Assembly: GCF_002000365.1 (NCBI RefSeq)
Contig: NZ_MVBK01000035.1
Coordinates: 490 to 51,773 of the forward strand
Direction: 5' to 3'
Length of the DNA stretch: 51,284 nt
Source of the DNA: Thioalkalivibrio denitrificans
GTDB lineage: Bacteria; Pseudomonadota; Gammaproteobacteria; Ectothiorhodospirales; Ectothiorhodospiraceae
Of the stretch, positions 25,556 to 40,183 are shown piece by piece. The notes under the pieces are model-generated. The model made no database searches and was not told the DNA's origin. It worked only from the letters and a program-made list of their open reading frames with translations. A program made the position numbers and the translations under genes. Each line of letters begins with the position of its first letter. The stretch's first letter is position 1.

Positions 25556-27934
25556 CTACTTCAAGAGCGCCAGCGGCCGGTACTGCAGGGCGTGGAACAT
25601 CTCCAGGTAACGCCGGGTTTCCGCGCGTTCCAGGTTGGTGACGTACTTCCAGAAGCCGTAGATGCGAGACAGCGTCATCATGCGTTCGGCATACAGCCGC
25701 CAAGTGTAGCGCTCTTCGACCCGGGCGATGGCGCCCCGGGAGATCGCATCCCAGTGTGCCGGGTCCTTCTGGCAGCGCTCCAGGAAGGCTGCTAACTCCG
25801 CGCTGGCGGTCTCCCCGTGGTTGGGGTCGATGTGAAAGCCGCTGGTCCCGTGGCGGATGATCTCCAGCGGTCCGCCGTAGCGTGTGGCGAAGGTGGGCAG
25901 GCCGGAGGCCATGGCCTCGATCACCGTCAGGCCGAAGGCCTCGAACAGCGCGGGCTGCACGAATACCCCGCGCCGGTCCGCAATGCAGCGGTACAGTTCC
26001 CCGGACAGGGTCTTGTCCAGGCGCACGCCCAGCCAGCGTACGCACCTGTCGAGGTCGTGGTCATCGAACAGGGCGTGCATACGCTCGATCTGCGCCTGTT
26101 CCTCGTGGTCGTCGGAGTGGCGGGGGTCCACGGCGCCGGCCACCACCACCAGGTTGGCGAGCTCGCGCAGCGTGGGGTGTTCCGCGTACCACGACACCAG
26201 CCCGGTGATGTTCTTGATGCGGTCCAGGCGGGCCATGGTGAAGATCACCGGTCGGCCGGGGTCGGCCAGCACGCCCCGGGCATCGTCCCGTGCACCACCA
26301 TAGAGCAGGTCGTCGATCTCGGTGTGCAAGCCGGTGATGCGCTGCCCGGTATCCGTGTAGGGGAAATACACGCGTTCGTCCGCACCGGGAGACACGATGT
26401 TGAACTTGGGGTCAAATACATTGATGCCCTGCACAACCCGGTACAGGTCCGGCATGGAGAAATGCATGTAGCTCTCGTACTGACCGATCTCGTCGTCTGT
26501 GCCCGCGATCTCCTGGTAGGTGCTGGTGATGATGAAGTCGGCCGAGTTCATGGCGATCAGGTCGGCGGTAAACTGGGTGGCGAAGTGATACTGGGCGTCG
26601 TTGTCCTTCCAGTACAGGTCGGAATACAGGTACTTGGTCTTCTCCAGGGCATGGGCGATGTTGCATTGCGTCACGTGCATGCGCGCGGACAGCAGCGAGG
26701 CCACCAGGTTGCCGTCGGAGTAGTTGCCGATGATCAGGTCCGGCCGCCCGCCCAGGTCCGCGAGGATCGTACGTTCCACCTCGTCGGCGAAACGCTCCAG
26801 GTACGGCCAGATCTCGAAGCGTGAGATCCAGTGGGACACGATCTCGCCGTCGTCGCCGCGAAACGGCACGCGCAGGATGCGTGCGTCCTCGGTCCCGGAA
26901 ATAGCCTCCTCGGCCTGGTCACAGGTGGTGCCCCGGGCCTCGGGGATCAGCCGCGTGACAACGCGTATGCGGGGCTCGATCTCGAGGCCCTGCTCGGAGA
27001 GGCGATCACGCATCTCGCGTTCCAGTGCGCGCACCTGGTCCAGGATGTAGACGACCTGCCCGCCCGTGTCCGGCAGACCCAGCACGCCCGCCTGCCCGAA
27101 GAAGCCGTGGGGCGAAAGGATCAGCAGGCTGAAGATCATGGGAATACGCGCCAGAAACCGCTCGAGGCTCTCGGGTGACGGCGCTTCCAGCAGTTCCGAG
27201 AGCAGACGCATGCTGTCCAGCACCCGGCCCGCGTCGCGTCCCCAGCCGGGCTCAAAGCCCAGGTGCTGGAGTTCATGGGCAATCTCCGTCCAGGGGGTGT
27301 CGCGGTCGCGCCGCGCCAGGCGCTTTTCCGCATCGCGGATGGCGGTGCGCAAGGCATCCACGCCGTCGATGCGGTCGTTGATCATCAGGGGACGACCGTC
27401 GCAGCGGTGCTCGCGCAGAAACAGGAACAGCTTGCTCAGGCCGCCGTTGGCGCGATCGAACAGCTGGCTGGAGAGCTTGCGGTTGAGAAACTCCACGCCC
27501 CGGCCGATGGAGCGTGTCTCGCGCATCTGCGGGAACTCCCGGTTGAAGGGCTCGATGTCGAACTCCAGCGGCCGTTCATGGCGCGGGTTCGGGCAGACCA
27601 GGCGCTCCTTCACCTCCAGAAAGTGACCCACGGTGAGCGGCTCCACACTCAGGTCGTCGGCATGGATGCGCACGAAGCTCCAGCGCCCGATGCGCTGGCG
27701 CAGCGCCAGGCACACCCAAGGCGCCGCAAGCACCGCCTCCTGGCAGTGTTCCACCATGTGCGCCAGCGGGCTGTCCGCCAGCGAGGCATCGTCGATGTCC
27801 TGACACAGGGCGTCGAACTCGTCGTGCAGCTGTGATTTCAGCAGGAAGGGGCGTCCCAGGGCCAGGTAACGCCGCAGCAGCAGGTACGCGGCCTCCCGTT
27901 GGGCCTGCAGGCTTTCCTCGAGCTGGTGGGTCAT
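25556..27934 (-). CDS. Sucrose synthase
   Basis: A 792-residue GT-B glycosyltransferase (GT4). The N-terminal regulatory region (about 1-270) is followed by the catalytic part with [32 protein letters not shown], where the GGQVVY motif marks sucrose synthases, and by the E-x7-E motif in [20 protein letters not shown]. It reversibly converts sucrose and a nucleoside diphosphate to fructose and NDP-glucose. In bacteria it occurs in few lineages, among them sulfur oxidisers and nitrifiers that hold sucrose as an osmolyte. It is divergent from the MarR gene and osmolyte-like cluster. Confidence 0.95.
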
Positions 27935-28047
27935 GGCGGTCTCCTGGCGGCGGCCTGAGAGCCAATTGACTCCCGCCCCCGCGTTGAGTTTCTTGTTCGT
28001 GAAATGCTATTGTACAAAAATATTTGCGACAAAAAGACCCTATTGCC
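27935..28047. promoter_or_regulatory. Divergent promoter region, sucrose synthase / MarR regulator
   Basis: This 113-bp gap must hold promoters for both directions. TTGTACAA (28010-28017) is a perfect 8-bp palindrome just ahead of the MarR start and near AT-rich TATT sequences, so it is a candidate operator for autoregulation. No protein gene is seen here. Confidence 0.4.
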
Positions 28048-28554
28048 ATGTCCACACCCCGTTCCAGCCTGTCCGGCGAATCCGGCAGCGCCAACGCAGC
28101 GCAATCCATCATCCGTCAGCTGCGGGTGGTGTTCCGCGCCCTGCAGAACCATTCGCGCAGCATCGAGAAGGCCTGCGGGGTCAGCGCGGCCCAGTTGTGG
28201 GCCCTGTGGGAGCTGCACAACGCGCCCGGTCTCAGAGTGGGCGATCTCTCGCACAGGCTGTTGATTCATCCTTCCACGGCTTCCAACATGCTGGACAAGC
28301 TGGAGAGCAAGCATCTGGTGGAACGGCGCAGGACAGGTATGGACCAAAGGGTGGTCAGCCTGTTTCTCACCCCGCGCGGAGAGGACCTGCTCCGGGCGGC
28401 CCCCGCGCCGGCCGAGGGCGAACTCAACCGTGCCCTGCAGGCCCTGCCCGGTCAACAGTTGGCGGCGCTCGAGTCGGGTCTGGCGGCCCTGCTGGAACAC
28501 ATGCAGGCCCATGACGAACAGGCCGCCCTGCGACCCATCGCCGGGGATGACTGA
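28048..28554 (+). CDS. MarR-family transcriptional regulator
   Basis: A 168-residue MarR regulator. The winged helix spans about residues 45-110 with VSAAQLWALWELHNAPGLRVGDLSHRL, HPSTASNMLDKLESKHLVERRRT and MDQRVVSLFLTPRGEDLL, the usual MarR wing. The ATG at 28048 is preferred to a TTG at 28024. It heads, by 84 bp, the cluster of N-carbamoyl hydrolase, cysteine hydrolase, carbamoyltransferase and amidotransferase, and probably controls it. MarR-type EctR regulators play the same role at ectoine genes of some halophiles, which makes a salt-response role an attractive inference. Confidence 0.9.
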   Translation: MSTPRSSLSGESGSANAAQSIIRQLRVVFRALQNHSRSIEKACGVSAAQLWALWELHNAPGLRVGDLSHRLLIHPSTASNMLDKLESKHLVERRRTGMDQRVVSLFLTPRGEDLLRAAPAPAEGELNRALQALPGQQLAALESGLAALLEHMQAHDEQAALRPIAGDD

Positions 28555-28638
28555 ATTCACGCATGACGCCGCGCACCGTGCTCCGTCGGGCCCTGCCGGT
28601 GTCATCCGTCCGGAATGTCCGGAAGGAGCAACCAGACC

Positions 28639-29925
28639 ATGAACGAGATCAGAGTCAACTTCGAACGTCTGCGCGACGATGTGCAGAGCCTGTCACGCAT
28701 CGGTCAGCAGGAGGATCAGGGTATCCACCGCATGGCTTTCAGTGAGGGCGATCTGGAGGGACGGCGCTGGTTTCGTTCGCGCGCCGAAGCCGCCGGCCTC
28801 GAGGTCTACGAGGATGGTGCCGCCAATCTGCACGCACGCCTGGACTGGGACGGAAAGCGTCCCGCCGTGATGATGGGTTCGCACCTGGACACGGTGCCCG
28901 GCGGCGGCCCGCTGGACGGGGCGCTGGGGGTTCTGGTGGGCCTCGAGGTGATGCGCACCATCAGCGAGGCGGGCGTCAAACTCAGGCATCCGCTGGAGGT
29001 GGTGGACTTCACCGACGAGGAGGGTCGTTTCGGCGGCCTGTTCGGTTCCCAGGCCATCGCCGGGCAGCTCACACCGGCCATCATTCACAACGCCCATGAC
29101 CTGGACGGCGTCACGCTTACCGAGGCCATGGCCGCCTGGGGGCTGGATGCCAACGCGGCCCTGTTCGCACGCCGCTCCCCGGAATCCATACACGCCTATC
29201 TGGAGCTTCATATCGAGCAGGGGCCGGTGCTGGACCGCAACAATGTGTCCATTGGCGTGGTGGATGCCATTACGGGCCTGTTCAAGTGGGACGTGCGCCT
29301 GATGGGGCAGACCAACCATGCGGGCACAACGCCCATGGATATGCGCGCCGACAGTTTTCAGGGGCTCGCGGAATTTTCCGGCGAGATCACCCGCATTCTG
29401 GAAGAGCACGGCAGCCCTCACAGCCGGGCCACCATCGGCCGGGTGGAACTCAAGCCGGGTGCCGCGAACACCATCCCCGGGCAGACCAGCTTTTCCCTGG
29501 ACGTGCGCGACACCGATGCCGAGACACTGAAGAATCTCTCGGATGCCTTCCGACGCACGCTCTCGGCACTGGCGCGGCGCCGGGACCTGATGTTCGAGTT
29601 CGACGTGCTGTCGGAGATCCCGCCCATGCGCTGCGACCCCGGGCTGGTTCAGTTGCTCACGGAGACTGCCGACCGCCTGGGGCTGGAGCATCTGCGCATG
29701 CCCAGCGGTGCGGCCCATGACGCCCAGATCATGGGGTCCGTCACCCGCACCGGCATGATCTTCGTGCCCAGCATCGAGGGCAAGAGCCATTCGGCATCCG
29801 AGTGGACGCCGTGGGAGGACATCGAGAAAGGGGCGAACCTGGCCCTGCAGGCGATACTGCAACTGGCCGCTGCGGATGCCGGCGTGACCATCAAGGAGCA
29901 GCCGGCGAAGAGGAAAAAGGCATGA
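28639..29925 (+). CDS. M20-family N-carbamoyl-L-amino-acid hydrolase / allantoate amidohydrolase-like
   Basis: A 428-residue binuclear metallohydrolase. Metal ligands are His82 in GSHLDTVPGGGPLDGALGVL, Asp93, Glu127-Glu128 in DFTDEEG, His191 in ELHIEQGPVLDR and a late His in PSGAAHDAQIM; TNHAGTTPMDMRAD is the dimer-interface substrate-binding segment. Family members cleave N-carbamoyl amino acids, allantoate or ureidopropionate to release NH3 and CO2. GGAAGGAG precedes the ATG at 28639. The stop overlaps the next start (ATGA). In this context decarbamoylation of N-carbamoylglutamine is my proposal, not a demonstrated activity. Confidence 0.9.
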   Translation: MNEIRVNFERLRDDVQSLSRIGQQEDQGIHRMAFSEGDLEGRRWFRSRAEAAGLEVYEDGAANLHARLDWDGKRPAVMMGSHLDTVPGGGPLDGALGVLVGLEVMRTISEAGVKLRHPLEVVDFTDEEGRFGGLFGSQAIAGQLTPAIIHNAHDLDGVTLTEAMAAWGLDANAALFARRSPESIHAYLELHIEQGPVLDRNNVSIGVVDAITGLFKWDVRLMGQTNHAGTTPMDMRADSFQGLAEFSGEITRILEEHGSPHSRATIGRVELKPGAANTIPGQTSFSLDVRDTDAETLKNLSDAFRRTLSALARRRDLMFEFDVLSEIPPMRCDPGLVQLLTETADRLGLEHLRMPSGAAHDAQIMGSVTRTGMIFVPSIEGKSHSASEWTPWEDIEKGANLALQAILQLAAADAGVTIKEQPAKRKKA

Positions 29926-30668
29926 ACGACAAGCCCGACAATGTCACCGATCTGACCAGGTACGACAATGTCGACCCGTTGCGCGAGCAGTATCGTGAAA
30001 CCCTGATCACCAACCGGATACTGAAGCGAGAGCTGGGCGCGCACCACACGGCGCTGCTGAGCATCGACCTGCAATACCTGGACGCCGCGCGTGGTCACGG
30101 CGTATTCGCAGACGCGGAACGTTCCGGCGTGCCCACCGAGGCGCAGGACTATTACTTCAGCCGTCTGGAGGACCTGGTCCTGCCCAACGTGCGGCGCCTG
30201 CAGGACGCGTTCCGCGCCGTGGGGCTGGAAGTGATCCATACGCGCATCCAGTCTCTGACCCGGGACGGGCGCGACCGGGGGCCGGGTCACAAGCGGCTCA
30301 ACCTGCATGCCGCGCCGGGCTCCAAGGAAGCGGAATTTCTGGAGATCGTGGCACCGCAGGGTGACGAGATCGTCATCAACAAGACCGCCAGCGGCGTGTT
30401 CACCTCCACCAACCTGGAATACGTCCTGCGTAATCTGGAGGTCACCTCTCTGTTCGTGGTGGGCGTCTACAGCAATGAGTGCGTCTCCACCGCCATCCGT
30501 GACGCCTGCGACCTGGGTTTTTACGTCACGCTCATCGAGGACGGCTGCGCGACGGTGACGCCGGAGATGCAGCGGGCGACCCTGACCACCATCAAGGACC
30601 GCTATGCCCGGGTCATGACCACCGACGAGGCACTGGCGGAGATCGCCAAGGTTGAAGAAGCCTCGTAA
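29922..30668 (+). CDS. Isochorismatase-like cysteine hydrolase (amidase)
   Basis: A 248-residue hydrolase of the isochorismatase-like / N-carbamoylsarcosine amidase fold. The catalytic triad is visible as Asp49 in LLSIDLQYLD, Lys154 in INKTASGVF and Cys187 in GVYSNECVSTAIRDA. Family members hydrolyse primary amides and carbamoyl compounds. A 40-residue N-terminal extension is present. It is translationally coupled to the M20 hydrolase (ATGA overlap), so the two should act in one pathway. Removal of the terminal amide from an N-carbamoyl amino-acid amide would fit; this is inference. Confidence 0.88.
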   Translation: MNDKPDNVTDLTRYDNVDPLREQYRETLITNRILKRELGAHHTALLSIDLQYLDAARGHGVFADAERSGVPTEAQDYYFSRLEDLVLPNVRRLQDAFRAVGLEVIHTRIQSLTRDGRDRGPGHKRLNLHAAPGSKEAEFLEIVAPQGDEIVINKTASGVFTSTNLEYVLRNLEVTSLFVVGVYSNECVSTAIRDACDLGFYVTLIEDGCATVTPEMQRATLTTIKDRYARVMTTDEALAEIAKVEEAS

Positions 30669-30761: not shown

Positions 30762-31850
30762 ATGGCAGTTCCCAACGATCCGCAGCTTGAGCGCCCGCTC
30801 AAGCCCAAGGACGGCACCGCCGGCATCGAGCGCCCCAGGGCGTTGCTGGATTCCCTGCCCGAGGACCCGCGTCCGCTCATGTCGCTGTCGAGTCGGCACG
30901 TGGTTTCATCGCGTCAGTTCGACCGCGACACGCTGCTGCAACTGTTCCGGCTCGCCGCGCAGTACGAGAGTACCCCTGCGCTGCTGCATCCGCCACTGGC
31001 AGGAAAGATCCTGATCAGCGCCTTTTATGAACCCAGTACGCGCACGCGTCTGTCGTTCGAAAGCGCGTGGCATCGCCTGGGCGGAGACATCATGTCCATC
31101 ACCGACGCCAGGAGCACCGGCATCGCCAAGGGCGAATCCCTGCCCGACATCGCCGAGATGTTCAACAACTACGGGGACGTGATCGTGCTGCGCAATACGG
31201 AGGCCGAGGCGATCTACGAGATGCTGGACTCGCTGCGTATCCCGATCATCAATGCGGGCAACGGCATCGACGAGCACCCCACCCAGGCCATGGCCGATGT
31301 CTACACCATCTTCAAGTGGCGTCCGGAACTGACCAGCCCGGATCTGCCGGCCGGCAAGCGCATCCGCATCGGCATCATCGGCGTGCCGAGCCGCATGCGC
31401 ACGGTGCGCAGCCTGTTGCTGATGCTGGCGTACTTTGCCTCGTCCATCGAGGAAGTGGCCATCCTGAGCCACGAAGACAACCTCTTCGACGAGGGTCAGC
31501 ACGAGGAGCTGACCAAGGCCGGCCTTTCAGTGCGTGTGGCCACGGATCTGGACGGCGAGTTGCCGAATCTGGATGTGGTGTACATCAACGCCATCGCGTG
31601 GGTGGGCGACACCTTCGAGGCCATGGGCATGGACATGCGCCTGAGCGCGGCGTCGCCGCTGAAGAAAGACGCCATCATCCTTCACCCGCTGGCACGCGGC
31701 GAGGAGCTGTCCACCGACCTGGACAAGACATCCCACAACTGGTACTTCGCCCAGGCCCGCGGCGCCGTATTCATCCGCATGGCACTGCTCACCTGCATGG
31801 TGCGGCGCATCGGCGAGGTCATGGATGTCCCGGATACGTCCCGGGGTTGA
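30762..31850 (+). CDS. Aspartate/ornithine carbamoyltransferase-superfamily enzyme, altered amino-acid site
   Basis: A 362-residue carbamoyltransferase, about 50 longer than catalytic ATCase chains because of an N-terminal extension of about 40. The carbamoyl-phosphate site is intact: STRTR at 92-96, Lys123 of the 80s loop (KGESL), Arg144 and HPTQ at 172-175. The ATCase Arg167 counterpart is kept (MRTVRSLL, Arg213), and HPLAR-GEELSTDLDKT resembles HPLPR-VDEIATDVDKT of ATCase. But TRxQ, which holds the aspartate side-chain carboxylate, is missing: here the strand reads YINAIAWVGDTFE (274-286). So it is unlikely to be PyrB. It may carbamoylate another amino acid such as glutamine. Confidence 0.9.
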   Translation: MAVPNDPQLERPLKPKDGTAGIERPRALLDSLPEDPRPLMSLSSRHVVSSRQFDRDTLLQLFRLAAQYESTPALLHPPLAGKILISAFYEPSTRTRLSFESAWHRLGGDIMSITDARSTGIAKGESLPDIAEMFNNYGDVIVLRNTEAEAIYEMLDSLRIPIINAGNGIDEHPTQAMADVYTIFKWRPELTSPDLPAGKRIRIGIIGVPSRMRTVRSLLLMLAYFASSIEEVAILSHEDNLFDEGQHEELTKAGLSVRVATDLDGELPNLDVVYINAIAWVGDTFEAMGMDMRLSAASPLKKDAIILHPLARGEELSTDLDKTSHNWYFAQARGAVFIRMALLTCMVRRIGEVMDVPDTSRG

Positions 31851-31852
31851 GA

Positions 31853-32036
31853 AGAAATGAACGACAGGATGAACAGGATTGTTGGGGATTAACAGGAAGA
31901 AGAATTGATCCAACTGCATCAACGGCATCTACGTGATTCTCGATTGAATCCGACCCCGTTGCCCACGTTGATCTTGTCTGAAAAGACTTCTTCCTGTTCA
32001 TCCTCAAAAATCCTGTAAATCCTGTCCATTAAGAAT
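31853..32036. repeat. Inverted repeat of ACAGGAT units behind the carbamoyltransferase
   Basis: The left side (31865-31905) and right side (31985-32034) carry inverted, degenerate copies of an ACAGGATGA unit. The element begins 2 bp after the carbamoyltransferase stop and fills most of the 248-bp gap to the amidotransferase gene. The same unit family occurs at 35145-35286 and 35957-36001. No gene is seen in this gap. Confidence 0.72.
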
Positions 32037-32098: not shown

Positions 32099-34117
32099 AT
32101 GTGTGGAATAGCTGGCGTGATGAACGCCGATCCCAAGCAACCCGTCGATCCCGAGACCCTGGTGGCCATGGCGGCCATTCAGTATCACCGCGGGCCGGAC
32201 GGGTTCGGTTACCGGGTGGAGAAGGGCCGCGGTGTGGGGTTTTCCCATGCCCGACTGACCATCATTGACCTGGACGAGAACCGCGGCCGCCAGCCGTTCG
32301 TCTCCCATGACGGGAACCTCATGCTGGCGGTCAACGGCGAACTCTACGACTACAAGCGCATCCGCACTGAGCTTACGTCGCGGGGCCACAAGTTCCGCAC
32401 CAAGAGCGACTCGGAGATCGTGTTGCATCTTTACGAGCGCCTCGGGTTGGAGGAGACGCTCAAACACATGCGCGGCGAGTTCGGCGTGGCGCTCTACGAC
32501 CGCGCTCACGACCGGCTCATGCTGATCCGGGATCGCTTCGGTGTGAAGCCCCTCTACTGGACCGAGGTCAACGGCAGGATCGTGTTCGGCTCCGAGATCA
32601 AGGTGCTGTTCGCGCATCCGGATGTGCCGCGCCGGTTCAACGCCAAGGGCCTCTACCATCAGCTCATGCAGACCGTGGTACCCGGCACCACGGCGTTTGA
32701 CGGCATCCACCAGGTCAAGCCGGGTCACGTGGTGACCATCGAGCGCCGCCACGGCAAGTTCGAGATCCGTGACGATCGCTACTGGGACATGGACTTCCCG
32801 CTGCTCGAGGAACGCGGCGAGCCCGAAGACGACGAGGTCTACATCGAGGCTGTGCGCCGGGAGCTGATGCAGGCCGTGCAGCTGCGCCTGGAGGCGGACG
32901 TGCCGGTGGCCTGTTACCTCTCCGGGGGCATCGATTCCTGCATCACGCTGGGTCTGTCCGCGGCGAACCAGCAGTCGCCGGTCAAGGCCTTCACCATCGG
33001 CTTCGACAACGCCGACTACGACGAGACGGCCATCGCCACCGAGATGGCCGAGTCCGTGGGCGCGGACCAGGACGTCATGCGTCTCAACGCTGACCATCTC
33101 TACGACAATCTCGTAGAGACGCTCTGGCATGCCGAACGCACCATCTACAACACGCTCGGTGTGGCGAAGCTCCTCATGAGCCGGCACGTGAACAAGGCCG
33201 GCTATCGGGTGGTGGTGACCGGCGAGGGCTCGGACGAACTGTTCGCCGGCTACCCGGCGTTCCGCCGGGACATGTTCCTGCACGGTCTCGACACCATGGA
33301 TCGGGCCGAGCGCGCCAGCTGGGAGCAGCTGCTGTCCGAGAGCAACAAGCTGTTCTCCGGCGCCATGCTCGCAGAGAACGAGCTCAACGACCCGGCGCTC
33401 AACGATCTGGTGGGCTTCACGCCCTCCTGCCTGCAGCCGTGGCTTGCCACTGCCGCTCATGTTCCGGGTCTCATGTCCAAGGACATGCGCGCCCAGGTGG
33501 AGGGTTACGAGCCGGGCCGCGCCATTGCCGAGGCGCTGGACGGCGACATGATCGAGGGGCGCCATCCCCTGGACAAGGCGCAGTACGTGTGGATCAAGAC
33601 CATGCTGGAAGGCCAGATCCTCACCTGGGGCGGTGATCGGGTGGACATGGCCAACTCCATGGAGGCGCGTCCGCCCTTCCTCGATCATCACCTGGCGGAG
33701 CTGGCCACGAAGATCCCGCCCTCCATGCGCATCCGGGGCCGCACGGAAAAGTACGTGCTGCGCGAATCCATGAAGGGGTTGCTGCCGAAGGTGCTCTACG
33801 AGCGCGAGAAGTTCGCGTTCATGGCGCCGCCGGCGCATACGGACCCCAAGAAATGGGCGGCCATGAAGGCACTGGCAGACCAGTACCTCTCCGACGAGGC
33901 CATCGAGGCCGCGGGGCTGCTGGATCCGGCCGGCGTGAAAGCGCTGTTCGAGCTGCACGACGCCGAGGACACCACCGCCTCCACCCAGGTGCAGCTGGAT
34001 GCGGTCATCAACCACATGATCGGTGTGCAGGTGCTGCACAGCCACTTCGTGGCGCAGGACGTGCCCGCGCTGGCGCGTGCGAAAGCGAAGGAACTGGGGT
34101 GGACGGCGGCGGCGTAG
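32099..34117 (+). CDS. Asparagine-synthetase-like glutamine amidotransferase
   Basis: A 672-residue AsnB-superfamily enzyme. Class II glutaminase: Cys2 nucleophile in MCGIAG, RGPDGFG at 31-37, GFSHARLTIID, LAVNGELYDY and SDSEIVLH. Synthetase domain: PP-loop SGGIDS at 275-280, then GEGSDELFAGYPA. It forms a carboxamide from a carboxylate with ATP and glutamine. It is longer than E. coli AsnB (about 554) and nearer in size to AsnB-like amidotransferases such as the one making N-acetylglutaminylglutamine amide, an osmolyte. The start is fixed by the required Met-Cys and an AGGAG site. Neighbours suggest amidation of an N-carbamoyl amino acid. Confidence 0.92.
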   Translation: MCGIAGVMNADPKQPVDPETLVAMAAIQYHRGPDGFGYRVEKGRGVGFSHARLTIIDLDENRGRQPFVSHDGNLMLAVNGELYDYKRIRTELTSRGHKFRTKSDSEIVLHLYERLGLEETLKHMRGEFGVALYDRAHDRLMLIRDRFGVKPLYWTEVNGRIVFGSEIKVLFAHPDVPRRFNAKGLYHQLMQTVVPGTTAFDGIHQVKPGHVVTIERRHGKFEIRDDRYWDMDFPLLEERGEPEDDEVYIEAVRRELMQAVQLRLEADVPVACYLSGGIDSCITLGLSAANQQSPVKAFTIGFDNADYDETAIATEMAESVGADQDVMRLNADHLYDNLVETLWHAERTIYNTLGVAKLLMSRHVNKAGYRVVVTGEGSDELFAGYPAFRRDMFLHGLDTMDRAERASWEQLLSESNKLFSGAMLAENELNDPALNDLVGFTPSCLQPWLATAAHVPGLMSKDMRAQVEGYEPGRAIAEALDGDMIEGRHPLDKAQYVWIKTMLEGQILTWGGDRVDMANSMEARPPFLDHHLAELATKIPPSMRIRGRTEKYVLRESMKGLLPKVLYEREKFAFMAPPAHTDPKKWAAMKALADQYLSDEAIEAAGLLDPAGVKALFELHDAEDTTASTQVQLDAVINHMIGVQVLHSHFVAQDVPALARAKAKELGWTAAA

Positions 34118-34194: not shown

Positions 34195-34245
34195 AACCTT
34201 CTTCCTTTGCCAGCGCGATCACCGGACTCGAAAGGAGCCCCCAAT

Positions 34246-35145
34246 ATGGAACTCGTCCTCGAATATTTCCAGGAGGTCCAATGGGATGACCTGATCTTTT
34301 CCACGCTGCGCATCCTGCTCATCCTGGTCATGGCCTGGGTGATCATGAGCGTGGTGCGCAACGCCCTGGGGCGGATGCAGCGCCGGCTGGTGGAGAGCGG
34401 CAAGCGCCAGGGGGACGTCCCTTCGGAGGCCAGCAAGCGCGCCGAGACCCTGGTGCGGCTGCTGCGCCAGGCGGTGATGATCGTCGTCTGGGTCATGGCG
34501 CTGCTGGTGATCCTCAACGAACTGGGTGTGTCCGTTGCCCCGATCCTGGCCTCGGCCGGCGTGCTGGGACTGGCGGTGGGCTTCGGCGCGCAGAACCTGG
34601 TGCGTGATGTCATCAGCGGGTTCTTCTTCATCCTCGAGAATCAGGTCCGCGTGGGCGACGTGGCGGTGGTCAACGGTACCGGCGGGCTGGTGGAGGCCAT
34701 CAACTTCAGGACCCTGGTGCTACGCGACCTGGAGGGCAAGGTGCACATCTTCCCGAACGGGACCATCGACTCCGTAACGAACCTGACCCGCGAGTGGTCC
34801 GCCTATGTGTTCGACATCGGCGTGGCCTACAAGGAGGACACCGACAAGGTAGTGGGTATCCTGAAGTCGGTGGGCGAGGAGATGAAGGCCGACCCGGAGT
34901 ACGGACCGAACATCATCGAGGACATGGAGATCTTCGGGGTGGACAAGTTCGATGATTCCGCCGTGGTCATCAAGGGACGCATCAAGACCCTGCCCATCAA
35001 GCAGTGGTACGTGGGCCGCGAGTTCCTGCGCCGGGTGAAGTATGCCTTCGACGCCCAGGGCGTGGAGATCCCGTTCCCGCACCGCACCTTCTACTTCGGC
35101 GACGCCAGTCCGCCTGTGCTGGCGCGTATGATCAACCGCGAATGA
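34246..35145 (+). CDS. Small-conductance mechanosensitive channel (MscS family)
   Basis: A 299-residue MscS channel, close to E. coli MscS (286). Two N-terminal membrane helices (about 18-38 and 65-90) precede the pore-lining TM3 with its Gly/Ala-rich pattern VAPILASAGVLGLAVGFGAQNLVRDVISGFFFILENQVRVGD (about 95-140), the standard signature. The beta domain and C-terminal cage follow. AAAGGAG precedes the ATG at 34246. It opens on hypo-osmotic shock and releases small solutes. Its position directly behind the carbamoyl/amide cluster suggests that it serves the same osmotic response. Confidence 0.94.
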   Translation: MELVLEYFQEVQWDDLIFSTLRILLILVMAWVIMSVVRNALGRMQRRLVESGKRQGDVPSEASKRAETLVRLLRQAVMIVVWVMALLVILNELGVSVAPILASAGVLGLAVGFGAQNLVRDVISGFFFILENQVRVGDVAVVNGTGGLVEAINFRTLVLRDLEGKVHIFPNGTIDSVTNLTREWSAYVFDIGVAYKEDTDKVVGILKSVGEEMKADPEYGPNIIEDMEIFGVDKFDDSAVVIKGRIKTLPIKQWYVGREFLRRVKYAFDAQGVEIPFPHRTFYFGDASPPVLARMINRE

Positions 35146-35286
35146 AATGGACAGGATGAACAGGATTGTTTGGGATTGACAGGATTAAGGACTAGAGATA
35201 AAGGACGAAAGACAAAAGACATTTGGACAGGATTAACATGATTTACAGGGTTGTTCTTGAAAGCCTTTGATCCTGTCCATTAATCT
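35145..35286. repeat. ACAGGAT-type tandem inverted-repeat element before the DUF302 gene
   Basis: AATGGACAGGATGAACAGGA and similar units start at the MscS stop codon and end with the inverted form ATCCTGTCCATT near 35272-35283. Part of the middle (about 35180-35220) switches to AAAGGACGAAAGAC-type units. Together with 35957-36001 in inverted orientation it brackets the DUF302 gene. Confidence 0.78.
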
Positions 35287-35397: not shown

Positions 35398-35919
35398 ATG
35401 AATCATATTCCTGCGATACCGTTCACCTCTCGTTCGTGCCACCGGCTCGCCGCGTTCGGGTTCGGCTTCATGTTGCTGGTTGCGTGGATCCTCCCAGGGG
35501 CTGCGCTCGCCCAGAGCGGGGACCAGCCGCAGCTGGTGGAGGTGGTCAAGAGCAACAAGTCTTTCCCGGAGACTCTGCAGGTCTTCAAGGAAGAGGCGAA
35601 GGCTGCAGGCTGGAGCGTGCTCAACGTCAACAACATGGCCGGTGTGCTCTCCATGCGGGGCTTCACCCTGGAACCGGTGGTGATCATTGATGTGTGCAGT
35701 GGACGCTACAGCGCACGCATTCTGGCCAACGACGATTATCGTCCCGTGTCCGCCTTCATGCCCTGTCGTGTCAGCATCTACCAGACCTCGGGCGGGGACG
35801 TGTTCATCTCGCGCATGAATACCAGCGCATTTCTGGAGATGATGCCCCCGGAGGTCGCCGAGGTGATGGCGGCTTCTGACGAGGAGATCGCGCAGATCAT
35901 TGCCCGAACGGTGCGCTGA
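35398..35919 (+). CDS. DUF302 domain exported protein
   Basis: A 173-residue protein with a long signal peptide (to about residue 39, cut near ALA-QS) and a DUF302 domain: KSNKSFPETLQVFKEEAKAAGWSVLNVNNMA, then a Cys-containing VVIIDVCSGRYSARIL and a MPCRVSIYQT segment. GGACAGGAT-type repeats lie on both sides in opposite orientation. The function of DUF302 is unknown; it is often seen with sulfur- or metal-related genes. An AAGGAG site precedes the start. Confidence 0.87.
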   Translation: MNHIPAIPFTSRSCHRLAAFGFGFMLLVAWILPGAALAQSGDQPQLVEVVKSNKSFPETLQVFKEEAKAAGWSVLNVNNMAGVLSMRGFTLEPVVIIDVCSGRYSARILANDDYRPVSAFMPCRVSIYQTSGGDVFISRMNTSAFLEMMPPEVAEVMAASDEEIAQIIARTVR

Positions 35920-35956: not shown

Positions 35957-36001
35957 GTTAATCCTGTTAATCCAGAAACATCCTGTTCATCCTGTCCATT
36001 G
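35957..36001. repeat. Inverted arm of the ACAGGAT family behind DUF302
   Basis: ATCCTGTTCATCCTGTCCAT and related units lie in inverted orientation relative to the arm at 35145-35188; the reverse complement matches that arm closely over more than 40 bp. It starts 38 bp after the DUF302 stop and lies between convergent genes. Confidence 0.75.
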
Positions 36002-36034
36002 CCTTTCAAGCCAGCCCCGCTGATTCACCTCCGC

Positions 36035-36825: not shown

Positions 36826-37617
36826 ATGAACGACGATCCCTGCGTGTACCTGGTGGGAACCGGGCCGGGTGATCCCGACCTTCTGACCGTCAGGGCCCTG
36901 CGCCTGATCGAGCAGGCCGACGTGGTGGTCTATGACCGCCTCGTGGCCCCCGGGGTGCTGGACCTGGTCCCCGCCGGCGCCAGCCGCATCTACGTGGGCA
37001 AGGCCACCGATCGCCACACCCTGCCACAGGACGAGATCAACCGGCTGCTGCTCAAGGTGGCCGGCCGCGCCCGGGTCGTGGTACGGCTCAAGGGCGGGGA
37101 TCCGTTCGTTTTCGGCCGGGGTGGCGAGGAAGCGGAGTTTCTGCGCCGGCACAACGTGCGCTTCGAAGTGGTCCCCGGGGTCACGGCGGCTACGGCCGTG
37201 ACCACCTATGCCGGTATCCCCCTGACCCATCGGGGCCTGTCCACGGGGGTGCAGATCATCACGGGCCACAGCCGTGCCAACGGCCCCCTCGAGCACGACT
37301 GGGCGCGGCTGGCCAACCCCGATCAGACGCTGGTCATCTACATGGGCGTGTCGAACATCGACGAAATCAGCGCCCGGCTCATGGAGGCCGGCCTGTCGGG
37401 TGATACCCCCGCAGCGGCGATCCAGGACGGCGCCACAAGCCGGCAGCGGCGCCTGGTGACCACGCTGGCCCAGCTGGGCCGCGAGACCCGCGAGGCCGAT
37501 CTGCGTCCGCCGGTGCTGTTCGTCATCGGGCGGGTGGTGAGCATGGCGGATACCCTGGACTGGTATCGGCCCGAGCAGGCGGAGGCGTGCCCCACGGCGC
37601 GAGAGCGCAGTGCATAG
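36826..37617 (+). CDS. nirE: Uroporphyrinogen-III C-methyltransferase (heme d1 pathway)
   Basis: A 263-residue SUMT. It uses SAM to methylate uroporphyrinogen III at C2 and C7, giving precorrin-2, the first committed step to heme d1. Marks are VYLVGTGPGDPDLLTVRALRL, YVGKATDRHTLPQDEIN, VRLKGGDPFVFGRGGEEAEFL and VPGVTAATAVTTYAGIPLTHRG. It lacks the CysG oxidase/chelatase domain. The nir context indicates NirE rather than CobA or CysG. Its stop overlaps the next start, so translation is coupled. The FNR-type box upstream probably drives it and the rest of the cluster. Confidence 0.93.
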   Translation: MNDDPCVYLVGTGPGDPDLLTVRALRLIEQADVVVYDRLVAPGVLDLVPAGASRIYVGKATDRHTLPQDEINRLLLKVAGRARVVVRLKGGDPFVFGRGGEEAEFLRRHNVRFEVVPGVTAATAVTTYAGIPLTHRGLSTGVQIITGHSRANGPLEHDWARLANPDQTLVIYMGVSNIDEISARLMEAGLSGDTPAAAIQDGATSRQRRLVTTLAQLGRETREADLRPPVLFVIGRVVSMADTLDWYRPEQAEACPTARERSA

Positions 37618-37957
37618 AGCAGTGGATAGATTCGTAATCGCAATACCGCTCGCCGTGCTGCTGGCCATGGGGGCCGGACCGGCAGCCATGGCCGGAGAGG
37701 CGCCCATCGACGACGAGCGCAAGGCTCACTTGCGCCACCTGGTCAAGCAGGACTGCGGTTCCTGCCACGGCCTGACCATGCGCGGCGGGCTGGGCCCGCC
37801 GATCACGCCCGAGGCACTGGCGCAGCGCGACCGGGAGACAATGGTGTACACCGTCCTGTACGGACGCCCCGGCACGCCCATGCCGCCCTGGTCTAGTATC
37901 CTGACTGAGCAGGAAGCCCGGTGGATTGTGGACCTGTTATACGAAGGAGACCTGTAG
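37610..37957 (+). CDS. nirC: NirC-type periplasmic cytochrome c
   Basis: A 115-residue monoheme cytochrome c with a signal peptide (cut near MAG-EA) and a single heme site C49-G-S-C52-H53. A methionine ligand is likely in TPMPPW. The start is GTG at 37610, overlapping the nirE stop; GTG at 37622 is an alternative. NirC-type proteins take part in the last periplasmic steps of heme d1 synthesis or supply electrons to NirS/NirN. The stop TAG overlaps the GTG start of nirF (37957). Confidence 0.85.
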   Translation: MHRAVDRFVIAIPLAVLLAMGAGPAAMAGEAPIDDERKAHLRHLVKQDCGSCHGLTMRGGLGPPITPEALAQRDRETMVYTVLYGRPGTPMPPWSSILTEQEARWIVDLLYEGDL

Positions 37958-39147
37958 TGAGGCGCACGAAACTTGCCGGATGCCTGCTGTGGGTGCTGCT
38001 GCTCGCCTGCCCCCTGGCGCTTGCCGGTCAGTCCGACGGCCTGCGCGCCACGGGCGATCTGGGCGTGATCATCGAGCGGGCCACCGGCAGCATCCAGATC
38101 ATCGAGACCACCTCGCGCACCAGCCTGGCCCGGATCACCGGGCTCGGCGATCTCTCCCATGCCTCGGTGAAGTATTCCCGGGACGAGCGCTATGCCTACA
38201 TCTTCGGCCGCGACGGCGGGCTCACCCAGGTGGACATGCTCAGGCGCAAGATCACCAACCGCATCATCCAGTCGGGCAACAGCATCGGGGGTGCGATCTC
38301 CCAGGACGGGCGGCTGCTGGCCGTGGCCAACTACGATCCCGGCGGCGTGAAGGTGTTTGATGCCCGCACCCTGGAACTGGTGGCCGACATCCCCGCCAAG
38401 GACGACGGAGGCGAGCGCTCCAAGGTGGTGGGCCTCGTGGACGCGCCGCGCCAGCGTTTTGTGTTCAGCCTGTTCGAGGCCGGCGAGATCTGGGTGGCGG
38501 ATTTCAGCGGGGGCGATACCCCGGAGATCACCCGCCACCGGGACGTGGGGCGCCAGCCCTACGATGCGCTGATCACCCCTGACGGCCGCTACTACATCGC
38601 CGGGCTGTTCGGCGAGGACGGCATGGCCATGCTGGACCTGCGCCGGCCGCAGGACGGCGTGCAGCGCATCATGGACGGTTACGGGCGCGGCGACGAGCCG
38701 CTGCCGGTGTTCAAGATGCCGCACCTGGAGGGCTGGGCCATGGCCGGTGACTATGCCTTCATGCCGGCGGTGGGGCACCACTCGGTCCTGGTGGTGGACC
38801 GGCGCGACTGGAGCGAGGTCAAGCGCATTCCGGTCCACGGGCAGCCCATCTTCGTCATGGCCAGCCCCGACCAGCACGCGGTGTGGGTCAATTTCGCCTA
38901 CCCGGACAATGACACGCTGCAGGTGATCGACGTGGATACCCTCGAGATCAAGGCATCCCTGAAGCCCGGGCCCGCCGTGCTGCACATGGAGTTCACGCCC
39001 CGGGGCGAGCACATCTGGGTGTCGGTGCGTGACGCCAACGAGGTGCACATCTACGACAGCTATTCCCTGGAGAAGCTCGGACAGCTGCCCGTGGAAAGCC
39101 CCAGCGGCATCTTCCTCACCGCCCGCGCCCACCGGATCGGACTCTGA
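37957..39147 (+). CDS. nirF: Heme d1 biosynthesis protein NirF
   Basis: A 396-residue eight-bladed beta-propeller related to the d1 domain of cytochrome cd1. The start is GTG at 37957, overlapping the nirC stop. The signal region MRRTKLAGCLLWVLLLACPL ends in LLAC, which could be a lipobox, as NirF is a lipoprotein in some denitrifiers; a cut at ALA-GQ is the alternative. Propeller marks are YAYIFGRDGGLTQVDMLRRK, GHHSVLVVDRRDWSEVKRI and PRGEHIWVSVRDANEVHIYD. It acts in the periplasm on a late heme d1 precursor. Confidence 0.94.
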   Translation: MRRTKLAGCLLWVLLLACPLALAGQSDGLRATGDLGVIIERATGSIQIIETTSRTSLARITGLGDLSHASVKYSRDERYAYIFGRDGGLTQVDMLRRKITNRIIQSGNSIGGAISQDGRLLAVANYDPGGVKVFDARTLELVADIPAKDDGGERSKVVGLVDAPRQRFVFSLFEAGEIWVADFSGGDTPEITRHRDVGRQPYDALITPDGRYYIAGLFGEDGMAMLDLRRPQDGVQRIMDGYGRGDEPLPVFKMPHLEGWAMAGDYAFMPAVGHHSVLVVDRRDWSEVKRIPVHGQPIFVMASPDQHAVWVNFAYPDNDTLQVIDVDTLEIKASLKPGPAVLHMEFTPRGEHIWVSVRDANEVHIYDSYSLEKLGQLPVESPSGIFLTARAHRIGL

Positions 39148-39149
39148 GC

Positions 39150-39611
39150 ATGGTCATGGAACTCACCCACCTGGAAAAGCGGCTGCTCAACGACTTTCAG
39201 CGTGACCTGCCGCTGAGCCAAAGGCCGTATGCGGATATGGCCGAGCAACTGGGGGTGAGCGAACAGGAGGTGATCGATACGCTGGAACGGCTCCGGGAGC
39301 GGGGCGTGGTGAGCCGCGTGGGCGCGGTGTTCCGGCCCCACAGCGTGGGTGTCAGCACGCTGGCCGCCATGGCGGTGCCCGAGGCCGAGCTGGAGCGGGT
39401 GGCCGAGGCCATTACCGCTTACCCGCACGTCAATCACAACTACGAGCGTGAGCACGAGTACAACCTCTGGTTCGTGGTGACCGCGAAGGATGAATCCGAA
39501 CTGTGCGGCGTGCTGGAGGACATGGAGCGCAGCACGGGGCTTTCCGTCCTGGCGCTGCCGCTGCTCGAGGACTATCACATCGACCTGGGGTTTGACCTGC
39601 AATGGACATGA
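39150..39611 (+). CDS. nirD: Heme d1 biosynthesis protein NirD (AsnC-like)
   Basis: A 153-residue AsnC/Lrp-like protein used as an enzyme, not a regulator. With NirL, NirG and NirH it decarboxylates siroheme propionates to 12,18-didecarboxysiroheme. NHNYEREHEYNLWFVVTA (about 91-108) is the NirD/NirG-type signature. The DNA-binding-like N-terminal part starts LTHLEKRLLNDFQRDLPLSQRPYADMAEQLG. It follows nirF by 2 bp and overlaps nirL by 10 bp. Confidence 0.9.
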   Translation: MVMELTHLEKRLLNDFQRDLPLSQRPYADMAEQLGVSEQEVIDTLERLRERGVVSRVGAVFRPHSVGVSTLAAMAVPEAELERVAEAITAYPHVNHNYEREHEYNLWFVVTAKDESELCGVLEDMERSTGLSVLALPLLEDYHIDLGFDLQWT

Positions 39612-40183
39612 GCGCCTTCAGGGAACATCTGCGGCAGATCCGCAGCCGGGTCGGTTTCCTGGAGGACACCGACCTGGCCCTGATCGGTGCCATCGAAAAG
39701 GGCCTGCCGCTCTCGCCCCGGCCCTACGCGGAGGTCGCGGCCGGGCTCGGCATCAGCGAGCAGGAGGTGCTGCGGCGGCTGGCGGCGCTGCGCAACCGCG
39801 GCGTCATCAAGCGCTTGGGCGTCGTGGTGCGCCACCGCGAGCTGGGCTATCGCGCCAACGCCATGGTGGTCTGGGATGTACCGGACGACACGGTGGGCGA
39901 GCTGGGCCGCTGCTTCAGCGGCTACGACTTCGTCACCCTGTGCTACCGCAGGCCCCGGCAGTTGCCACAGTGGCCGTACAACCTGTTCTGCATGATACAC
40001 GGCAAGACCCGGGACGAGGTGCAGGCGCGTATCGCGCAGCTGGTGCAGGAATGCGGGCTCGAGTCGGTGCAGCATCAGGTGCTGTTCAGCCGTCGCCGAT
40101 TCAAGCAGTGCGGCGCCCGTTACCATGGCGTGACGACGTGCCCCGCACTTGCCGACGCGCGGGAGGCCGACTATGCGACCTGA
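39602..40183 (+). CDS. nirL: Heme d1 biosynthesis protein NirL (AsnC-like)
   Basis: A 193-residue member of the siroheme decarboxylase family. VTLCYRRPRQLPQWPYNLFCMIHG (about 119-142) is the NirL/NirH-type signature. The alternation of D-type and L-type subunits continues in the next two genes, so D/L and G/H are probably functional pairs. It overlaps nirD by 10 bp and nirG by 11 bp, which indicates stoichiometric, coupled translation. Assignment as L rather than H rests on gene order. Confidence 0.85.
   Translation: MDMSAFREHLRQIRSRVGFLEDTDLALIGAIEKGLPLSPRPYAEVAAGLGISEQEVLRRLAALRNRGVIKRLGVVVRHRELGYRANAMVVWDVPDDTVGELGRCFSGYDFVTLCYRRPRQLPQWPYNLFCMIHGKTRDEVQARIAQLVQECGLESVQHQVLFSRRRFKQCGARYHGVTTCPALADAREADYAT

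Follow-up and report, generated by a model that had tools for sequence, protein, structure and literature searches.

A carbamoyltransferase and amidotransferase gene pair as candidate machinery for N-carbamoyl-glutamine amide synthesis in Thioalkalivibrio denitrificans and other bacteria

N-carbamoyl-glutamine amide (CGA) is a compatible solute accumulated by Ectothiorhodospira marismortui (PMC1224877; PMC3857566), and it has been reported from that organism only, as a minor solute (PMC3857566). Making the compound takes a single carbamoyl transfer plus the amidation of one carboxylate. No published genes or enzymes for CGA were found in a literature search whose coverage lay mostly outside subscription journals, and no other N-carbamoyl amino acid amide was found reported there as an osmolyte. 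A 2020 genome survey of phototroph osmolytes names CGA and analyses the betaine and ectoine pathways only (PMC7824335). Following Banciu et al. 2005, a genome paper on Thioalkalivibrio gives the solutes as glycine betaine and sucrose, with CGA not listed (PMC3072093), and the main text of a salt transcriptome study of T. versutus D301 leaves carbamoyl and asparagine genes unmentioned (PMC9062515).

Among described enzymes, amidation has a parallel in the NAGGN system (TIGR03104), which makes the compatible solute N-acetylglutaminylglutamine amide. That solute is neutral and derived from glutamine; an enzyme of the Asn-synthase family provides its terminal amide, and its N-cap comes from peptide formation and acetylation. 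Carbamoyl transfer is represented by the catalytic chain of PyrB (TIGR00670/NF002032), and by the PtcA (TIGR04384) and YgeW (TIGR03316) catabolic clusters, where members of the ATCase/OTC superfamily, with acceptors thought to be other than aspartate or ornithine, are adjoined by amidohydrolases. The window analysed here, a stretch of 51,284 nucleotides from Thioalkalivibrio denitrificans, contained a co-directional cluster encoding, in order, a MarR regulator, an M20 hydrolase, an isochorismatase-fold hydrolase, a carbamoyltransferase (CT), an asparagine-synthase-like amidotransferase (ASN) and an MscS channel.

The CT gene (30762–31850, + strand) has GAGGAG, a motif resembling a ribosome-binding site, upstream of its ATG and encodes 362 amino acids with the Pfam domains OTCace_N (136.4 bits) and OTCace (48.1 bits). 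A sequence-only reading had described the product as ATCase-like, with an intact carbamoyl-phosphate site and a lost aspartate site. The likeness was borne out by these domains and by an AlphaFold model (mean pLDDT 87) that closely resembled ATCases, which were its nearest solved structures (Z 34–38). Every residue and motif said to be kept was present: STRTR (92–96), Lys123 of the 80s loop, Arg144 (Arg105 in E. coli) and HPTQ (172–175) in the carbamoyl-phosphate site, together with HPLAR (308–312) and Arg213 (Arg167 in E. coli). Among 122 CT relatives, the counterparts of STRT, the 80s-loop Lys, Arg105 and His134 were invariant, as was Arg213, and that of Gln137 was kept in 121. CT resembles PyrB in three respects, namely its carbamoyl-phosphate site, the Arg167 counterpart and the overall fold (Z about 37; Foldseek TM on the target about 0.87).

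The aspartate site was another matter. The segment INAIAWVGDTFE (CT 275–286) stands where PyrB has its TRVQ strand, and the loss first noticed in this one protein extended to the whole family: the position of Arg229 was occupied by A, S or T in 122/122 relatives and by R in 39/39 PyrB sequences, while that of Gln231 was A, S or V in 122/122 and Q in 39/39. Arg234 and Pro268 of E. coli were also replaced in all CT members, the HPLP motif of PyrB being HPLA in 122/122 through the change of Pro268 to Ala. Since the trait is common to 122 relatives, chance and a frameshift or sequencing slip were ruled out as origins of the altered site. The additional N-terminus of about 40 residues, which had likewise been thought unlike PyrB, is a genuine trait of the CT family; Gly21, Pro25, Leu28 and Glu34 were conserved across relatives. 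By its model, CT has the fold of an ATCase with a remodelled acceptor pocket. The lost aspartate ligands are firmer evidence against certain acceptors than for any particular one.

The best NCBIfam match to CT was asp_carb_tr (TIGR00670), at 187.9 bits against a cut-off of 236.95; the score with NF002032 (PyrB) was 185.6 against 263. In contrast, the genome's own PyrB passed both (310.6 and 407.5 bits), and the PyrB copy of E. marismortui likewise passed the PyrB cut-offs. Identity between CT and PyrB had a median of 28% and a maximum of 33%. In phylogenetic analysis, CT formed a clade of its own (SH-aLRT 100) on a long stem of 2.16 changes per site, and was excluded from both of two well supported PyrB clades (99 each). 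The backbone near CT was weaker, E. coli PyrB and a four-sequence PyrB clade joining CT only at 85. The tree places the origin of CT within the ATCase branch, rather than the OTC branch, with weak support for its position inside the former. That CT is a fast-evolving second aspartate carbamoyltransferase for pyrimidine synthesis would be in keeping with its fold, its nearest structures and its best NCBIfam match, but this is scarcely credible when that match is below cut-off, both aspartate side-chain ligands are lost in every member, and every genome tested that carries CT has a PyrB of its own. Moreover, CT is tied to ASN, not to pyrimidine genes, which are absent from its context. An identity as ordinary PyrB was ruled out by the active site, the cut-offs, the tree and the separate PyrB.

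Scores against the remaining carbamoyltransferase families were lower still: 90.4 with ArgF (TIGR00658, cut-off 280.85), where the ornithine motif HCLP is replaced by HPLA, 70.1 with PtcA (TIGR04384, cut-off 500), 32.9 with YgeW (TIGR03316, cut-off 500) and 31.5 with N-acetylornithine carbamoyltransferase (NF003384, cut-off 288). Exactly three PF00185 genes were found in the T. denitrificans genome and in each of eight others; in all of these, PyrB and OTC are both present separately from CT. The sub-threshold equivalog scores, the position outside the PyrB clades and the separate PyrB and OTC all support the proposal, made from the sequence, of a carbamoyltransferase with a new acceptor.

ASN (32099–34117, + strand) combines the Pfam domains GATase_7 and Asn_synthase, and belongs to the class II glutamine amidotransferases of asparagine-synthase type. 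Its catalytic motifs were complete in 72/72 sequences: the N-terminal MCGI with the glutaminase cysteine (Cys2), SGG[IV]DS at the ATP site, and GEG[SA]DE. The association with CT was very strong. Among 369 genomes of the class, all 23 with CT also had ASN, while the 346 that lacked CT yielded one distant match (38% identity; Fisher p about 1e-35). Of 64 loci with full context, 63 had ASN next to CT or separated from it by no more than a few genes; the exception was Thiorhodospira sibirica, where CT and ASN are about 0.7 Mb apart and both are kept at 78–80% identity. ASN is therefore an obligate partner of CT, and the two are the invariant core of the gene set.

Although ASN passed TIGR01536 (426.3 against 267.1 bits), the NAGGN and XrtA amidotransferases pass this model too. 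A housekeeping role as asparagine synthetase was ruled out: in Kangiella and Idiomarina, ASN is the sole Asn_synthase gene, yet AsnA is present, and GatB was present in the other four genomes tested (T. denitrificans, E. marismortui, T. sibirica and Cyanobium). With one or the other of these present in each genome tested, ASN is dispensable for asparagine. ASN has the same domains as the NAGGN enzyme, but it scored 309.7 with TIGR03104 (cut-off 570.1), and a real NAGGN amidotransferase is encoded elsewhere in the T. denitrificans genome (L198:740–2518, 985.2 bits; 30% identity to ASN), with another in E. marismortui (985 bits). These observations ruled out ASN as the NAGGN enzyme. The XrtA amidotransferase is also separate from ASN in the T. 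denitrificans genome. Given its NAGGN enzyme, this genome may provide for two different glutamine-derived amide solutes. An asparagine-synthase-like protein with 37–38% identity to ASN was seen in one other genome (G182, L220:8298–10211), with no CT and in a cluster that looked unrelated.

The remaining genes of the cluster concern regulation and probable breakdown. At its head is a MarR-family regulator (28024–28554, + strand; Pfam MarR), conserved in the clusters of Ectothiorhodospira and Thioalkalivibrio. Next comes an M20-family N-carbamoyl-L-amino-acid hydrolase (28615–29925, probable start 28639, + strand), a likely breakdown enzyme, which exceeded the cut-off of the hydantoinase/carbamoylase model TIGR01879 (387 bits) and had the N-carbamoyl-L-amino acid hydrolase 3n5f as its nearest solved structure. 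It also resembled ErtE, an N-carbamyl-L-glutamate amidohydrolase, with a score of 394.7 bits that fell short of the cut-off. Overlapping its stop codon is the start of an isochorismatase-fold cysteine hydrolase (29922–30668, + strand; PF00857), likely the ureido or amide hydrolase of a breakdown route; its nearest solved relatives are cysteine hydrolases that include N-carbamoylsarcosine amidohydrolase and biuret hydrolase. Downstream of ASN, the MscS-type mechanosensitive channel (34207–35145, + strand; Pfam MS_channel) is a weakly conserved associate, adjoining ASN also at L058, L063 and L100. The divergent neighbour upstream is sucrose synthase (25556–27934, - strand; TIGR02470, 1194 bits, above cut-off), found at the same position in 9/64 loci, mostly from Ectothiorhodospira. 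Sucrose is another compatible solute of this bacterial group.

Across the 64 loci with full context, the genes recurring with CT were a Na+/solute symporter (54), a small membrane protein (52), the M20 enzyme (49) and the cysteine hydrolase (41). The symporter had seemed absent from the window, which was explained by finding it, with the small membrane protein, encoded elsewhere in the genome; it lies outside the cluster in T. denitrificans, E. marismortui and others, and in the first two the small membrane protein adjoins it. This protein has 130–200 amino acids, begins with a signal-like stretch and has one hydrophobic segment, at its C-terminal end (L113, L124:5935–6453 and, in T. denitrificans, L227:5377–5871), and was matched by no Pfam or NCBIfam model. 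Its gene usually precedes that of the symporter closely or stands first in the cluster, and the protein is a possible accessory subunit. In a genome of another class, with a CT only 48% identical, the order membrane protein, symporter, CT, ASN was kept, with M20 nearby. Both hydrolases were missing from some clusters, for example in Idiomarinaceae. The hydrolases and the symporter thus seem to be optional additions that serve the compound handled by CT and ASN.

Two N-carbamoyl-type hydrolases and a symporter could also belong to an energy-yielding catabolic cluster, with CT yielding carbamoyl phosphate and ATP through phosphorolysis of an N-carbamoyl compound, in the manner of agmatine or YgeW-type systems. 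This is improbable, however. There was no carbamate kinase among the recurrent neighbours of CT loci; the invariant partner is instead an ATP-consuming amide synthase, kept even where the hydrolases are lost, and the PtcA and YgeW scores given above are far below cut-off.

The cluster was present in the known CGA producer. E. marismortui DSM 4180 is the type strain, with genome FOUO00000000 (PMC8877833). The CT cluster of this genome is locus L067, and a search of the PF00185 fold family found three genes in all, with no orphan carbamoyltransferase other than CT. The CGA compound of 1991 presumably derives from strain DSM 4180 itself. Elsewhere, CT was found in 38/38 near-complete genomes of the family to which the window belongs, in 23 of the 369 genomes of its class (identity of at least 62%) and, besides T. 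denitrificans itself, in one distant form (48%) in a sample of 398 genomes from the phylum. When 84,980 species genomes were scanned, 251 CT relatives were returned, and the best 80 of these included Ectothiorhodospira, Thioalkalivibrio, Thiorhodospira, Thiohalobacter, Thiohalophilus, Idiomarina, Pseudidiomarina, Aliidiomarina, Kangiella, Pleionea, Cellvibrionaceae, spirochaete MAGs and Cyanobium. Most of the named holders belong to halophilic, marine, salt-lake or soda-lake lineages.

CT and ASN are quite likely the machinery of CGA synthesis, with CT a glutamine alpha-N-carbamoyltransferase and ASN an N-carbamoylglutamine 1-amidotransferase, the acceptor and product being inferred. CT would first move the carbamoyl group from carbamoyl phosphate onto the alpha-amino group of L-glutamine, with Arg213 holding the alpha-carboxylate, and the former aspartate side-chain pocket, lined by the small residues Ala277 and Ala279, would suit a longer, neutral side chain. 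ASN would then use glutamine and ATP to amidate the alpha-carboxylate of N-carbamoylglutamine, as the NAGGN amidotransferase does with its dipeptide; carbamoylation probably precedes amidation. The proposed N-cap would thus come from a carbamoyltransferase, in contrast to that of NAGGN. The product would be a neutral, highly soluble solute with a presumed osmotic role. A drop in salt would call for its breakdown by the M20 carbamoylase and the cysteine hydrolase, and the Na+/solute symporter might recapture what had leaked. Counting against this reading are the record of CGA as a minor solute of a single organism, its omission from the published Thioalkalivibrio solutes and the missing hydrolases of some clusters.

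An N-carbamoyl amino acid amide is indicated as product because an arginine for the alpha-carboxylate, without a charged side-chain site, is combined with an amide-forming ASN and with N-carbamoyl amino acid hydrolases. Sequence alone does not fix the acceptor, and all that marks the pocket residues is small size and lack of charge; the same scheme might operate on another amino acid, such as glutamate, asparagine or glycine, or the acceptor of CT might be an amino acid that already carries the amide. The likeness of the M20 enzyme to ErtE would agree with an acceptor other than glutamine. Nevertheless, this is unlikely, given that the retained Arg167 counterpart favours a free alpha-carboxylate on the acceptor, that the loss of Arg229 and Gln231 disfavours an acidic side chain, and that CGA is the sole osmolyte of its kind found reported, from a producer that carries exactly this set. 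Glutamine as acceptor had been hinted at in the sequence-only reading, and it is strengthened by the gene context, that is, by ASN, the two N-carbamoyl hydrolases, the symporter and the known CGA producer.

The wider proposal, of a new kind of carbamoyltransferase and a full module for CGA synthesis, breakdown and re-uptake across Gammaproteobacteria, spirochaetes and at least one cyanobacterium, is on balance favoured. If true, assignment of CT and ASN would supply a candidate gene set for a solute described in 1991 and so close a gap in gene knowledge, and the ATCase fold would gain a member whose carbamoyl acceptor is an amino acid different from aspartate. Rather than the curiosity of one species, CGA would prove to be a widespread though neglected solute of saline waters, predicted in many marine and soda-lake bacteria. 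The two genes are liable to be misread, CT as another aspartate carbamoyltransferase and ASN as an asparagine synthase.

Three CT-like paralogues (L054, L055 and L056, at L216:8212–9363, L217:2486–3688 and L218:3857–4927) had 36–41% identity, an altered STRT motif and no adjoining ASN; one of them shares its genome with a normal CT, and their sequences suggest that they are possibly non-catalytic. The His134 counterpart was Asn in two of four intermediate sequences. Within the window, a dispersed repeat (GGACAGGATGAACAGGATT...) occurs in inverted pairs (31863–31902, 31987–32026, 35146–35189, 35224–35265 and 35958–36005); one such pair takes up the CT–ASN intergenic space, and another flanks a DUF302 ORF (35398–35919). 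Further downstream, the region at 36826–40183 resembles a heme d1 (nir) cluster, comprising a uroporphyrinogen-III methyltransferase (checked with Pfam) and ORFs that appear cytochrome-like, beta-propeller-like and, in two cases, regulator-like.
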